37,561 nucleotides of DNA from the NCBI GenBank assembly GCA_031284065.1, contig JAITAP010000014.1, positions 1-37,561 of the forward strand, given 5' to 3'. Made by a program: the position numbers and the translations under genes. This DNA is from Prevotellaceae bacterium (lineage in GTDB: Bacteria; Bacteroidota; Bacteroidia; Bacteroidales; UBA932). Below, piece after piece: positions 7,012 through 11,933 of this stretch (position 1 is its first letter; each line of letters opens with the position of its first letter). Under the pieces are notes generated by a model. That model had not been told where the DNA came from and ran no database searches. It saw only the letters and a list, made by a program, of their open reading frames with translations.

Positions 7012-8037
7012 ATGGATGAAGAAAAAAGTAACCAAAGCACGGTAATCAACCCAATGACCCGCAAAAAATTTCTGCGGACGTGCGGCGCAATTGTTGCCGG
7101 AGGCGCTGTTGCTGCGGTATCGGGTACGCTGATGAGGCGGACGCTTGCGCCGCCGGTTGGCGTTGCGCCGGATGGGCTGCGTCCGGTGCGAGGCGAGGCA
7201 TTTGCATCGCCCTACAAGCTGGTAGCGGCTTTTGCCACAGACCAAGCCATAGAAAGCCTTGCGCTGCGGGGCGACGAGCTGTACGTGGCGGCGGCGGGCA
7301 CGGTTTCGGCTTACGACGGCTACGGCACGCTGCTTCGCCGCTTTACCGCCGCCGAACCCATACGCGATATTGCCGTCGCCGGCGATGAGATTTACCTGCT
7401 GCACCCCAACAGCATCGGGGTGTATTCGCCGACGGGCGAGCTGCTGCGCGGCTGGGAGGCTTGCAGCGACTTGTCCGACTACTGCTCGCTTGCGCTTGCG
7501 TCAGGCTGCGTATTTGTTACCGATGTGAGGAACAAGAATATTTGCAAATACACCGCCGAAGGAAATTTTGTAAAGTTCATCCACAGCCCCAACGGGTTTG
7601 TTATCCCCAGCTACACGTTCGGGATTGAGCATATCGGCGGCGCGCTGTACTGCTCCAACCCGGGGCGGCATCAGGTGGAGCGCTACACGGTTGACGGCGA
7701 ATACGTCGGCTCGTTTGGCAAACATGGCGCTGCTCCCGGCATGTTCACCGGATGCTGTAACCCGGTGTACTTGTCGTGCACCCCAAGCGGCGACGTTATT
7801 ACCTCCGAAAAGGGAGACCCGCGTATCAGCTGCTACGGGCGAGACGGTGCGTTTCGGGGCGTACTGCTCGACGGAAAAATGCTGGGCGGCGGAAGAATTG
7901 CCTACGACGTGAAGGTGCAAGGCGACAAAATAGTGGCGGCGGGGAAAAAGAGAGTTTCCATTTTTCGCTACGACAGCGCCCAAACGGCAAGCACAGCCTG
8001 CGGCGGATGCGGCGTTAGCTGCCCGCTGCGCGGATAA
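7012..8037 (+). CDS. Exported NHL-like beta-propeller protein with Tat-like signal and Cys-rich C-terminus
   Basis: NPMTRKKFLRTCGAIVAGGAVAAVSGTLMRR signal; repeated propeller blades; ends ACGGCGVSCPLRG. The ORF track starts at TTG 6982; ATG 7012 is preferred. Confidence 0.75.
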   Translation: MDEEKSNQSTVINPMTRKKFLRTCGAIVAGGAVAAVSGTLMRRTLAPPVGVAPDGLRPVRGEAFASPYKLVAAFATDQAIESLALRGDELYVAAAGTVSAYDGYGTLLRRFTAAEPIRDIAVAGDEIYLLHPNSIGVYSPTGELLRGWEACSDLSDYCSLALASGCVFVTDVRNKNICKYTAEGNFVKFIHSPNGFVIPSYTFGIEHIGGALYCSNPGRHQVERYTVDGEYVGSFGKHGAAPGMFTGCCNPVYLSCTPSGDVITSEKGDPRISCYGRDGAFRGVLLDGKMLGGGRIAYDVKVQGDKIVAAGKKRVSIFRYDSAQTASTACGGCGVSCPLRG

Positions 8038-8057
8038 AAATTCAAACGTTACAAACA

Positions 8058-8624
8058 ATGGGGCATAACATTGCAAACCCTGTTTCCCGCAAAAAGTTTT
8101 TGCGGCTCTGCGGCTCCATCGCTGCGGGCGTTGCTGCTGCGTCCATCTCCGGCGTGCTGCTCCGGCGGGCGCTGACGGCGCAGCCGCGCTATTTTTGGCA
8201 GATAGACCCCATGAAATGCACCTGCTGTGGCCGCTGCGCAACCGCCTGCGTGCTGCCTGTTTCGGCGGTAAAGTGCATCCATGCCAACAAGGTGTGCGGG
8301 TACTGCGACCTCTGCGGGGGCTACTACCGCACCAACGCGAAAGACCTCAATACCGCGGCCGAAAACTTGCGCTGCCCCACCGGCGCTATCGAGCGAAAGT
8401 TTGTAGAAGACCCGTACTTTGAGTACGCCATCAACGAGAGCTTGTGCAACGGCTGCGGAAAGTGCGCCAAAGGCTGCAACTCATTCGGGAACGGCTCGCT
8501 CTACTTGCAGGTAAAGCGAGACTTGTGCAAGAACTGCAACGAGTGCCAAATTGCCAACGTGTGCCCTTCGGGGGCTATCATGCAGGTGGCATACGACAAG
8601 GCGTACATGCTAAAAGACGCTTGA
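8058..8624 (+). CDS. Tat-type exported polyferredoxin (NapG-like 4Fe-4S protein)
   Basis: SRKKFLRLCGSIAAG signal; CTCCGRCATAC, CGYCDLC, CNGCGKCAKGC and CKNCNECQIANVCP Cys motifs. Confidence 0.82.
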   Translation: MGHNIANPVSRKKFLRLCGSIAAGVAAASISGVLLRRALTAQPRYFWQIDPMKCTCCGRCATACVLPVSAVKCIHANKVCGYCDLCGGYYRTNAKDLNTAAENLRCPTGAIERKFVEDPYFEYAINESLCNGCGKCAKGCNSFGNGSLYLQVKRDLCKNCNECQIANVCPSGAIMQVAYDKAYMLKDA

Positions 8625-8660
8625 CGCAGCCGGATACCTGTTTACTTATAACCTACTACT

Positions 8661-9947
8661 ATGCTGAACGCAGTGAAAAAATCGGCTACACTTTCTACTC
8701 GCATCCTGCGAATATGGGCTACTTTGCCATTCCTTTTTCATGCCGGTGTTGCCGGTGCGCAGCGGTTTCCCAAGCCCGATTTTGAATCGGGGTACAAGTA
8801 CCCGGAGCTGTACTACGCCATCCCCAACGAGTCGCTGTGGACGGCTGTGGATATTACCCTGCTGGCGGCGCTGATGAGCGTGGTGGCGTGGGCAGTCATC
8901 AAAAGGCGAACGCGCGCGCCGGTGGTCGTCACGTCCGTTATTTCGGTGGCGTACTTTGGCTTTTTCCGGAGCGGGTGCGTTTGCAGCATTGGCGCAATAC
9001 AAAATGTGGCGGTGGCGCTCGCCGACAGCTCATACGTCATACCGCCGTCGGCGTTGCTCTTCTTCATTTTGCCCATCATTTTTGCCATTTTAGCGGGACG
9101 GGTGTTTTGCGCGGGCGTATGCCCGCTGGGTGCGCTGCAAGAGCTGGTCAACGTAAAAAGCTATCGCCTCTCCAAAGCGCTCACGGCTGCCCTGAGCATA
9201 ATCCCCTGGATTTACCTTATCTTTGCGGTGTTGTTTGCGGTTACGCGCAGCGGCTTCATCATTTGCCGCTTCGACCCGTTTATCGGCATATTCCGTCTGG
9301 GGGGCGACATTGGGATGATTGTCTTTGGAGCGCTTCTGCTCGTTGCCGCCATCTTTACGGGGCGACCGTTTTGCCGTTTACATTGCCCGTACGGTGCGCT
9401 GCTGAGCCTCTTTGCCCGCGTATCGGTATGGAAGGTAAAAATCACGCCCGGCTGCATCAGCTGCGAGCTGTGCCACAACGCCTGCCCCGTTGACGCTATC
9501 CGTGCGCCTTACGCAAACAAGGTAAAAGAAAGCCGTGCGCAAGGCGTAAAACGAATACTGCTCTACCTGCTTTTGCTGCCTGCAATGGCCTGCGCAGGCG
9601 CCCTGACGCTGCGCGTAGCGAGCAACTCGCTAAGCCGCGTGAATAAGGACGTCCGGCTGTACGATATGGTAGCGCAAAACGAAGCGACGCCGCAGGACGT
9701 GCAATTGCCGGAGCTGGAGGCTTTCTACGGTCAGGGCGGAACGGTGGAGGAGCTGAGCCGACGCGCCGCAACGGTAGAAGCCGATTTCAGGCGTTACGCC
9801 ACCGCTGCCGGCGCGCTAATGGGCATGGTCGTCGGCTTTACCCTGATAGGGCTATCGCTAAAGCGCACGCGGAAAACATACGAGATAAACGACGCTGCCT
9901 GCGTACATTGCGCCCGCTGCTTTAGCTACTGCCCGCAAAAAAAATAG
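8661..9947 (+). CDS. Polytopic membrane 4Fe-4S protein, NapH/NosR-like
   Basis: Two CX3CP motifs (FCAGVCPLGA, FCRLHCPYGA), ferredoxin motif CISCELCHNACP, C-terminal CVHCARCFSYCP, several TM segments. Confidence 0.85.
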   Translation: MLNAVKKSATLSTRILRIWATLPFLFHAGVAGAQRFPKPDFESGYKYPELYYAIPNESLWTAVDITLLAALMSVVAWAVIKRRTRAPVVVTSVISVAYFGFFRSGCVCSIGAIQNVAVALADSSYVIPPSALLFFILPIIFAILAGRVFCAGVCPLGALQELVNVKSYRLSKALTAALSIIPWIYLIFAVLFAVTRSGFIICRFDPFIGIFRLGGDIGMIVFGALLLVAAIFTGRPFCRLHCPYGALLSLFARVSVWKVKITPGCISCELCHNACPVDAIRAPYANKVKESRAQGVKRILLYLLLLPAMACAGALTLRVASNSLSRVNKDVRLYDMVAQNEATPQDVQLPELEAFYGQGGTVEELSRRAATVEADFRRYATAAGALMGMVVGFTLIGLSLKRTRKTYEINDAACVHCARCFSYCPQKK

Positions 9948-10103
9948 CGGCGGGGTAAGAGCTGTGCGGTACGCGGAGGGAGCCTCCTCGTTACGCTCGG
10001 AGTAACGCGGGTGGCGTTGCCTGAAAGTCAAGGCAATTTGAGTTTGCCATAAAAAGCGTCGTCATTAATTTGAAAGAATTAATAAGACTTTATATAATTT
10101 ACC

Positions 10104-11933
10104 ATGAAAAAGAAAATTTTCCGGAATATCGCTATCGTATCGGCTATCTTTATCGTTGCCTTTTCGGCAATGCTGATAACAAACTATTTTCAGGTAAGGG
10201 GCTTTGACCCGCTACAGGCAGAGGTTGTTGAGACGCTCAAGCAAATCAACGACGAAAATGCCGGCAACGTCAAGCTTCAGGAGCAAATCCGCCAGCTCGA
10301 CCTGCTGGCGCGGCGGGCTTACTTCGTGCGCCTCGACCACCTCAGGTCGGGGGTGTACATAATGGTTGCCATGCTGGTGGTGTTTGTGGCGGCGCTGCGG
10401 TTCTACTTTGCCGAAGAAAAAAACATTCCCGGCAAGCAGATTAGCCCCGTTGACGATTGGATGGAGAAAACGCTTGCCCGAAAGTACGTGGCGTGGATAG
10501 CGGGCGGGCTGGTTGCCGCTGCGCTGGTGTTTGTGTTTTTTACCGCGCCGTTTCTAAAAAGCGGAACGGATGCTCTTATGGGGCAGCCTGCCGGCGATGT
10601 GTACGCCGCCGCCGAGCAATCCGCCGCCGGAGAGGGCGAAAATGTAGCGCCGTCGGCAGGCGAGGATACGGTAGAGAACACGGCGGACGGCTTGGCGGAG
10701 AGCTTGGCGGAAGCCGTTGGCGAAAATCCGGAAGGGGCACAAGAGGCGCAAAATCCGGCAGAGGAAGCGGCCAGCGTCAGCGCTCCGAAGGTAGCGCACA
10801 GTTGCTTTCGCGGCAACAACTCCAACGCCGTGTCGCCCGCCCGAAACGTACCTGTCAAGTGGAACCCCACAACCGGCGAAAATATTGCGTGGGCGAGCGA
10901 TATTCCCCGTCATGGCTTCAACTCGCCGGTGATAACCGGCAACAAGGTGTTCATCACGGGGGCAGACGAGCAAGCCCGCGAGCTGTACTGCTACGACCTG
11001 ACGACGGGCAAGCTGCTCTGGACGCTGGCGGCAAGCAATATTCCCGGTTCGCCCTCCAAAATGCCCGAAACCACCGAAGACACAGGGCTTGCCGCGTCCA
11101 CCGTAGCCACCAACGGCAAGCAAGTGTGCGGCATATTTGCCTCCGGCGACCTGATTTGCGCCGACATGGAGGGCAAGCGGCTTTGGGCAAAAAATCTTGG
11201 AGTTCCCCAAAACCACTACGGATACGCCTCGTCGCTGCTGACGTTCGGCAGCTTGCTCATCGTTCAGTACGACAACAGCGTCGCGCCAAAGGTGATGGCG
11301 CTGGACATGGCTACCGGCGACGAACGCTGGACAAAAAGCCGGACGGACAAAATCACGTGGAGCTCGCCCATCATTGCCTACGTTAACAATCAGCCGCAGC
11401 TCGTGCTGATGGGCAGCCCAAGCATAACCGCCTACAACCCCAGCAACGGGGAGCAATACTGGCGGGTAGAAGGGTTGAGCGGCGAGGTGGCGTCAAGCCC
11501 GTGCAGCGCGGCCGGAGTGGTGTTCGGCGCAAGCGAGTACGCCGCGCTGATTGCCGTGAACGCTACCACCGGCCAAACCTTGTGGACGGCAAACGATTTT
11601 CTCCCCGAAGTTTCGTCGCCGGTAGCCACAAAAGACAACGTGTACCTTGCCACGAGCTACGGCGTGCTGGCATGTTACGACGCGCAAACCGGCGAGCTGA
11701 AGCGTTCGCACGAGCTGAACACCGAGTTCTACTCCTCGCCGATAATCACCGAAGGAAAGCTGTACGTTTTCAGCAACAGCGGCAAAATGTTCATCTACTC
11801 CGCCAACCAGAGCTTTGACCTGCTAAGCTCGTTCGATACCGGTCAAAAAACGTTTGCTACCCCCGCCTTCACCGATGGCAGAATAGTGGTGCGCACCGAA
11901 AAAGGCATCTACTGCGCGAAAGTTGAGAGCTGA
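10104..11933 (+). CDS. Membrane-anchored PQQ-like beta-propeller protein
   Basis: N-terminal TM segments, Ala/Glu/Gly-rich linker, then CFRGNNSNAVSPARNVPVKWNPTTGENIAWASDIP and repeated blades (ELYCYDLTTGKLLWTL, LIAVNATTGQTLWTA). Confidence 0.82.
   Translation: MKKKIFRNIAIVSAIFIVAFSAMLITNYFQVRGFDPLQAEVVETLKQINDENAGNVKLQEQIRQLDLLARRAYFVRLDHLRSGVYIMVAMLVVFVAALRFYFAEEKNIPGKQISPVDDWMEKTLARKYVAWIAGGLVAAALVFVFFTAPFLKSGTDALMGQPAGDVYAAAEQSAAGEGENVAPSAGEDTVENTADGLAESLAEAVGENPEGAQEAQNPAEEAASVSAPKVAHSCFRGNNSNAVSPARNVPVKWNPTTGENIAWASDIPRHGFNSPVITGNKVFITGADEQARELYCYDLTTGKLLWTLAASNIPGSPSKMPETTEDTGLAASTVATNGKQVCGIFASGDLICADMEGKRLWAKNLGVPQNHYGYASSLLTFGSLLIVQYDNSVAPKVMALDMATGDERWTKSRTDKITWSSPIIAYVNNQPQLVLMGSPSITAYNPSNGEQYWRVEGLSGEVASSPCSAAGVVFGASEYAALIAVNATTGQTLWTANDFLPEVSSPVATKDNVYLATSYGVLACYDAQTGELKRSHELNTEFYSSPIITEGKLYVFSNSGKMFIYSANQSFDLLSSFDTGQKTFATPAFTDGRIVVRTEKGIYCAKVES

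Follow-up and report, generated by a model that had tools for sequence, protein, structure and literature searches.

Four adjacent genes at positions 7012-11933 of the window (the whole 37,561-nucleotide stretch of DNA that was analysed, contig JAITAP010000014.1 of a Prevotellaceae genome) are, on balance, best read as the membrane-bound and periplasmic components of an electron-transfer system of Bacteroidales that also has a cytosolic Bfu-type module, with a NapH-like protein as conduit and exported proteins as electron acceptors or donors. The cluster to which they belong is a real and conserved variant, apparently undescribed, that combines NapGH-like with Bfu-like parts, and by which gut and marine Bacteroidales probably move electrons between the cell's pool of NADH and ferredoxin and proteins beyond the inner membrane. 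Such a system would join NapGH-like conduits and Bfu-type bifurcating modules, which are not described together in the papers cited here, in an order whose members are major anaerobes in guts and sediments. It also provides a concrete candidate for a group of Bfu proteins that has no assigned function. The question is testable because cultured strains carry the cluster, namely Parabacteroides sp. PH5-46 and PF5-9, Mangrovibacterium marinum, Carboxylicivirga linearis and Plebeiobacterium marinum.

The four genes and their products

The preliminary description of this DNA, made from its letters alone, gave the four genes and their coordinates correctly: all are open frames on the forward strand, with intergenic gaps of 20, 36 and 156 bases, an ssb gene upstream on the opposite strand and a TrmB-type methyltransferase gene downstream. 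Chance open frames are ruled out by the strong protein conservation across Bacteroidales. The profile searches proposed in that description returned a weak NHL match for gene 1, a ferredoxin for gene 2, NapH/MauN for gene 3 and PQQ_2/BamB for gene 4, and TatC, one of the TatABC components it suggested looking for, is present in the window's genome. A sigma-70-like site (11/12) lies at 10070-10098, immediately before gene 4; promoter- and terminator-like sites across the region, sigma-70-like ones included, are not more frequent than in shuffled sequences.

Gene 1 (NHL1; 7012-8037, + strand) encodes 341 residues from its ATG, with an alternative TTG start 30 bases upstream, and its product begins with a Tat-like N-terminus, TRKKFL, that has RK rather than RR and ends in a Cys tail, CxxCxxxC. 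Its match to the NHL profile is weak; its AlphaFold2 model (pLDDT 88) matches NHL domains with a TM-score of up to 0.80 on the target, and the fold search returned the general NHL fold and nothing more specific. NHL1 is thus, as modelled, confidently predicted to be a propeller. The GCCNP motif (C248-C249 in NHL1) occurs in 33 of 33 NHL1 proteins, in 14 of 15 proteins of the related NHL2 and in every NHL protein listed from the second of the two lineages described below. Residues 171-272 hold 24 of the 27 columns that are invariant in both lineages, and the invariant columns include H220, C248-C249, E266, K267 and R271. Because the invariant residues cluster in this way, we take the NHL protein to be the likelier active component; a docking or catalytic role for a propeller, as the preliminary description had suggested, is possible, and the NHL protein with its conserved GCCNP is the best candidate. 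A plasmid search with the NHL protein gave no match.

Gene 2 (8058-8624, +; 188 residues) encodes a NapG-like ferredoxin. Its Tat-like N-terminus has RK, where relatives show either RR or RK; its 16 cysteines make up four 4Fe-4S sets and are all invariant among 13 aligned sequences; and its score against the NapG profile is weak (21 bits; cut-off 269). The best profile of gene 3 (8661-9947, +; 428 residues) is NapH/MauN at 61 bits (cut-off 213), and the protein, as judged from this score, is a distant relative of NapH; the NosR profile gives 53 bits (cut-off 1000). It has two CX3CP motifs (C150/C154 and C238/C242), two complete 4Fe-4S motifs (C265-C275 and C414-C424) and, by hydropathy prediction, a signal peptide followed by seven transmembrane helices. 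When the positive-inside rule was applied by hand to the charge counts, the CX3CP and both ferredoxin motifs were predicted to face the cytosol, and an invariant CxC (C106/C108) as well as C202 to face the periplasm. The AlphaFold model of the NapH-like protein (pLDDT 58.5) was too poor for use. All core features of a NapG-like and NapH-like pair (Cys sets, Tat N-terminus, transmembrane helices and motifs) are found in the quartet, and the earlier proposal of such a pair with propeller partners is borne out by motifs, Cys sets and profiles. NapGH-type membrane pairs move electrons between the inner membrane and the periplasm.

Gene 4 (PQQ4; 10104-11933, +; 609 residues) encodes three N-terminal transmembrane helices followed by a PQQ_2/BamB-type propeller. 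It scores 80 bits against the BamB profile (cut-off 285) and 42 bits against the PQQ alcohol dehydrogenase profile (cut-off 480), has no full-length quinoprotein match, and matches PF01011 over 37 residues.

Conservation and the wider cluster

With gene 1 as the query in a search of named genomes, we obtained 39 loci, all but one of which are titled Bacteroidota. The exception, titled Eubacteriales (L033), has a cluster closely resembling that of a Parabacteroides metagenome-assembled genome (L032) and may reflect mis-binning or transfer. The ferredoxin, NapH-like and PQQ4 genes follow the NHL gene in order in 27 of the 28 Bacteroidales loci whose sequence extends 4.2 kb or more past that gene; since loci were picked by gene 1, the count describes the companions of gene 1. 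The neighbourhood survey that the preliminary description had called for therefore finds the quartet co-conserved. Within the window's genus, 8 of 11 genomes have the NapH-like gene. The system looks restricted to the order Bacteroidales: in a phylum sample of 396 genomes only the window's own genome matched (E <= 1e-60), compared with 70 of 393 genomes of the order at a looser cut-off, other phyla being unevenly sampled.

The quartet of relatives is embedded in a cluster of 9-12 genes, whose parts are one to three PQQ-like propellers, one or more NHL propellers, the ferredoxin, the NapH-like protein, PQQ4, a BfuC-BfuB fusion of about 800 residues (BfuBC), a BfuA-like protein and a further propeller, PQQd. 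The fullest order in the first lineage begins with a ferredoxin, a radical SAM protein, a DUF116-polyprenyl synthase and two cyclase-like proteins, continues with one to three PQQ-like propellers (PQQa, PQQb), PQQc, NHL2 and NHL1, and ends with the ferredoxin, the NapH-like protein, PQQ4, the BfuC-BfuB fusion, the BfuA-like protein and PQQd; NHL2, PQQa and the terpenoid part are absent from some loci. PQQc stands upstream of the quartet in 30 of 34 loci, and its vicinal Cys pair is present in all 28 first-lineage proteins and in few of the second lineage. Where the sequence allows, an ABC ATPase and an FtsX-type permease follow the cluster, often with a family-4 glycosyltransferase. The second lineage is more diverged (NapH-like protein about 40% identical) and has the same redox genes.

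Some loci depart from this order. The order in genome G770 is broken by small unrelated genes, and small genes also lie between redox-cluster genes at L034:9078-9407, L073:2227-3285 and L131:6949-7266 and 9838-10194, some of them toxin-antitoxin-like by eye. The cluster of Bacteroides sp. BH.2_15 (L042) is in many short open frames, as pseudogenes or assembly errors would be. Related histidine kinase and LytTR genes (L127:211-2098, L025:2168-3948, L027:1597-3377, L040:1404-3160 and L125:2501-4340; LytTR only in L052 and L054) sit upstream of the PQQ propeller genes or the terpenoid cassette, from which the redox system may have its own two-component control.

Association with a Bfu-type flavoprotein

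In 21 of 22 related loci the next gene after the quartet encodes a fused NADH/ferredoxin flavoprotein of the BfuC-BfuB type, behind which a BfuA-like gene usually lies. The preliminary description had held that the only non-Fe-S partners were propellers, and this does not stand: BfuBC adjoins the quartet in these loci, and BfuBC and BfuA are encoded elsewhere in the window's genome. The same association leads us to reject a quartet standing alone. The Pfam domains of BfuBC in relatives (Complex1_51K, SLBB, NADH_4Fe-4S, Fer4 and 2Fe-2S thioredoxin-like) are those of the published Bfu definition, and its cluster cysteines, including extra N- and C-terminal ones, are conserved, also in the copy of the window's genome. 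In the PDB, the BfuBC profile matches nine chains of the HydB/NfnB type at 688-851 bits; formate dehydrogenase beta and NuoF chains reach no more than 482 bits. The BfuA-like proteins of relatives and of the window's genome have 2Fe-2S and further Fe-S domains. Second-lineage BfuA has a Rossmann domain with GltD/NfnL-like profiles, the BfuA of the window's genome has a Rossmann-type domain too, and the 320-residue form of the first lineage is without it. Where the domain is present, Bfu could use NAD(P)H on its own, a point against the electron route proposed below. In one second-lineage BfuBC (L064:7498-9837), a cysteine of the NuoF-type 4Fe-4S site is replaced by Gly.

Across 393 genomes of the order, a NapH-like protein was found in 70, a high-scoring BfuBC in 63 and both in 62, so that only 1 of the 63 BfuBC genomes is without a NapH-like protein (cut-offs of E about 1e-40 for NapH and 1000 bits for BfuBC, chosen after the lists were seen). 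Fisher's test gives p of about 4e-62, a value that overstates independence as the genomes are kin by descent. Lower-scoring BfuB-type proteins are common (258 of 393 genomes at E <= 1e-200) and presumably belong to other enzymes. In the first lineage, the four proteins and BfuBC have correlated family distances (r 0.74-0.89; none of 200 permutations was as high), as is equally expected from shared vertical descent.

In the window's own genome, contig C205 carries one full-length BfuBC (71% identity to the Mangrovibacterium protein), C22 a BfuA-like gene with a Rossmann-type domain adjoining a PQQd gene, and C25 a PQQc gene preceded by genes for a histidine kinase and a LytTR regulator. With these parts on three other contigs, the window's cluster is dispersed, not partnerless. 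A close relative (L023) likewise has the quartet without an adjoining BfuBC; elsewhere PQQc is still beside the quartet (G002), or BfuBC and BfuA lie behind the NapH-like and PQQ4 genes (G009). No terpene cyclase was found in the window's genome assembly (86.6% complete, 280 contigs).

Comparison with described systems

The quartet resembles NapG/NapH in its Tat-type four-cluster ferredoxin and in a membrane protein with two CX3CP and two ferredoxin motifs, predicted on the cytosolic side. It differs in that the membrane protein has seven predicted transmembrane helices rather than the four of published NapH, and an extra conserved CxC and Cys on the predicted periplasmic side; the cluster, moreover, has propeller and Bfu partners instead of NapA, NapB and NapC. 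Neither NapA nor NapB was recognised in the neighbourhoods read, and the preliminary description was right that neither NapA nor NosZ is near the quartet.

Like the Bfu family of HydABC-type enzymes as set out in the main text of Schut et al. 2022 (PMC9304861), the partner protein has BfuB and BfuC domains, the cluster cysteines and, in relatives, a BfuA-like neighbour; unlike the enzymes treated there, BfuC and BfuB here form a single fused chain, which is linked with propellers and a NapGH-like conduit. That main text lists 17 BfuB clades without assigned function and has no mention of NapH, PQQ or propellers. Flavinylated NapH-like, NosR and PceC systems (PMC8238504, the eLife 2021 flavinylation survey, and PMC5928378) share with the quartet a NapH-like core with CX3CP motifs and varied partners. 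Unlike them, the quartet and the partner proteins scanned have no FMN-binding domain, and membership of the flavinylated NapH-like and NosR systems is on this evidence not supported. PQQ4 has the repeat type of BamB and other PQQ_2 propellers, and unlike BamB it is anchored by three transmembrane helices and lies within an electron-transfer cluster. We found no published description of this cluster in open-licence papers, and within that scope the term "undescribed" used at the outset holds.

Proposed electron route and alternatives

The association with Bfu suggests that NADH and ferredoxin are the partners on the cytosolic side; it points, by gene content, to a putative cytosolic electron source or sink, and given it the quartet need not depend on quinol. 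We infer an electron path as follows. The cytosolic Bfu module (BfuC-BfuB fusion plus BfuA-like protein) would exchange electrons with NADH and ferredoxin, and the NapH-like protein would carry electrons across the inner membrane, outward to or inward from the exported ferredoxin with its four clusters and the exported propellers. Among the propellers, the NHL protein is the likeliest candidate for acceptor or active component, and the PQQ-like ones would most probably be scaffolds. On this reading the system would most likely serve to supply low-potential electrons to an acceptor outside the cytoplasm, perhaps a lipid or glycoconjugate that the linked ABC transporter and glycosyltransferase handle. 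Direct electron transfer between BfuA and NapH is not proved by gene order and co-occurrence. Tentatively, the Bfu NADH/ferredoxin module, the NapH-like protein and the periplasmic Fe-S and propeller proteins might even form one transmembrane complex for quinone-independent, confurcation-driven reductions outside the cytoplasm, an extension that we regard as doubtful.

A classical NapGH-type quinol dehydrogenase, in which menaquinol would feed the NapH-like protein, the ferredoxin and an unrecognised periplasmic reductase with Bfu linked only metabolically, would agree with NapH/MauN being the best profile of gene 3 and with the proposal that Wolinella NapH takes electrons from quinol and hands them to NapG (PMC5928378). 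We consider this rather unlikely: a known reductase is absent from all neighbourhoods read, the quartet is tied to BfuBC instead, and at 61 bits against a cut-off of 213 a quinol site cannot be assumed. The flow could also run inward, a propeller oxidising a periplasmic substrate and the chain reducing NAD+ and ferredoxin through Bfu by bifurcation. Bfu enzymes are proposed to be reversible in the main text of Schut et al. (PMC9304861), and oxidases such as ExaA are among the partners of NapH-like systems (PMC8238504); with no recognised oxidase, and with PQQ-like propellers that have no full quinoprotein match and only short, local matches to quinoprotein dehydrogenases in the PDB, inward flow seems unlikely. 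The same profile and PDB results disfavour quinoprotein catalysis by the propellers. That they are quinoprotein dehydrogenases donating via NapH to quinone is highly improbable, even with PQQ_2/BamB-type domains in several cluster proteins and published NapH-ExaA clusters (PMC8238504): the PQQ alcohol dehydrogenase score is far below its cut-off, and PqqC was not found in 61 genomes (a search without a positive control).

The chain might instead reduce or desaturate an exported terpenoid or glycolipid of the neighbouring terpenoid cassette. This cassette lies upstream of the redox cluster in 15 of 21 related loci, a NapH-like protein is present in 13 of the 15 genomes of the order sample with this cyclase (G593 and G591 have the cyclase without a NapH-like match), and a glycosyltransferase and an FtsX-type transporter are linked. 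Set against this, 57 of the 70 NapH-positive genomes, the window's among them, have no cyclase match at the cut-off used. As most NapH carriers are thus without the cyclase, a terpenoid cannot be the general substrate, and we hold this reading to be very unlikely.

The terpenoid cassette

The cassette itself, for which we found no published description, consists of a ferredoxin, a radical SAM protein, a DUF116-polyprenyl synthase fusion, a small cyclase-like protein and a class II terpene cyclase that bears a D-x-D-D-T motif. Pirellula staleyi is known to have a DUF116-polyprenyl synthetase fusion (PMC5898192). The cassette adjoins the redox cluster or stands alone, and we located it at L052:559-6596, L121:9039-15434, L123:9748-16023, L125:4611-10846, L128:3327-9678 and L043:54-4259, the last with only the final three cassette genes in view.
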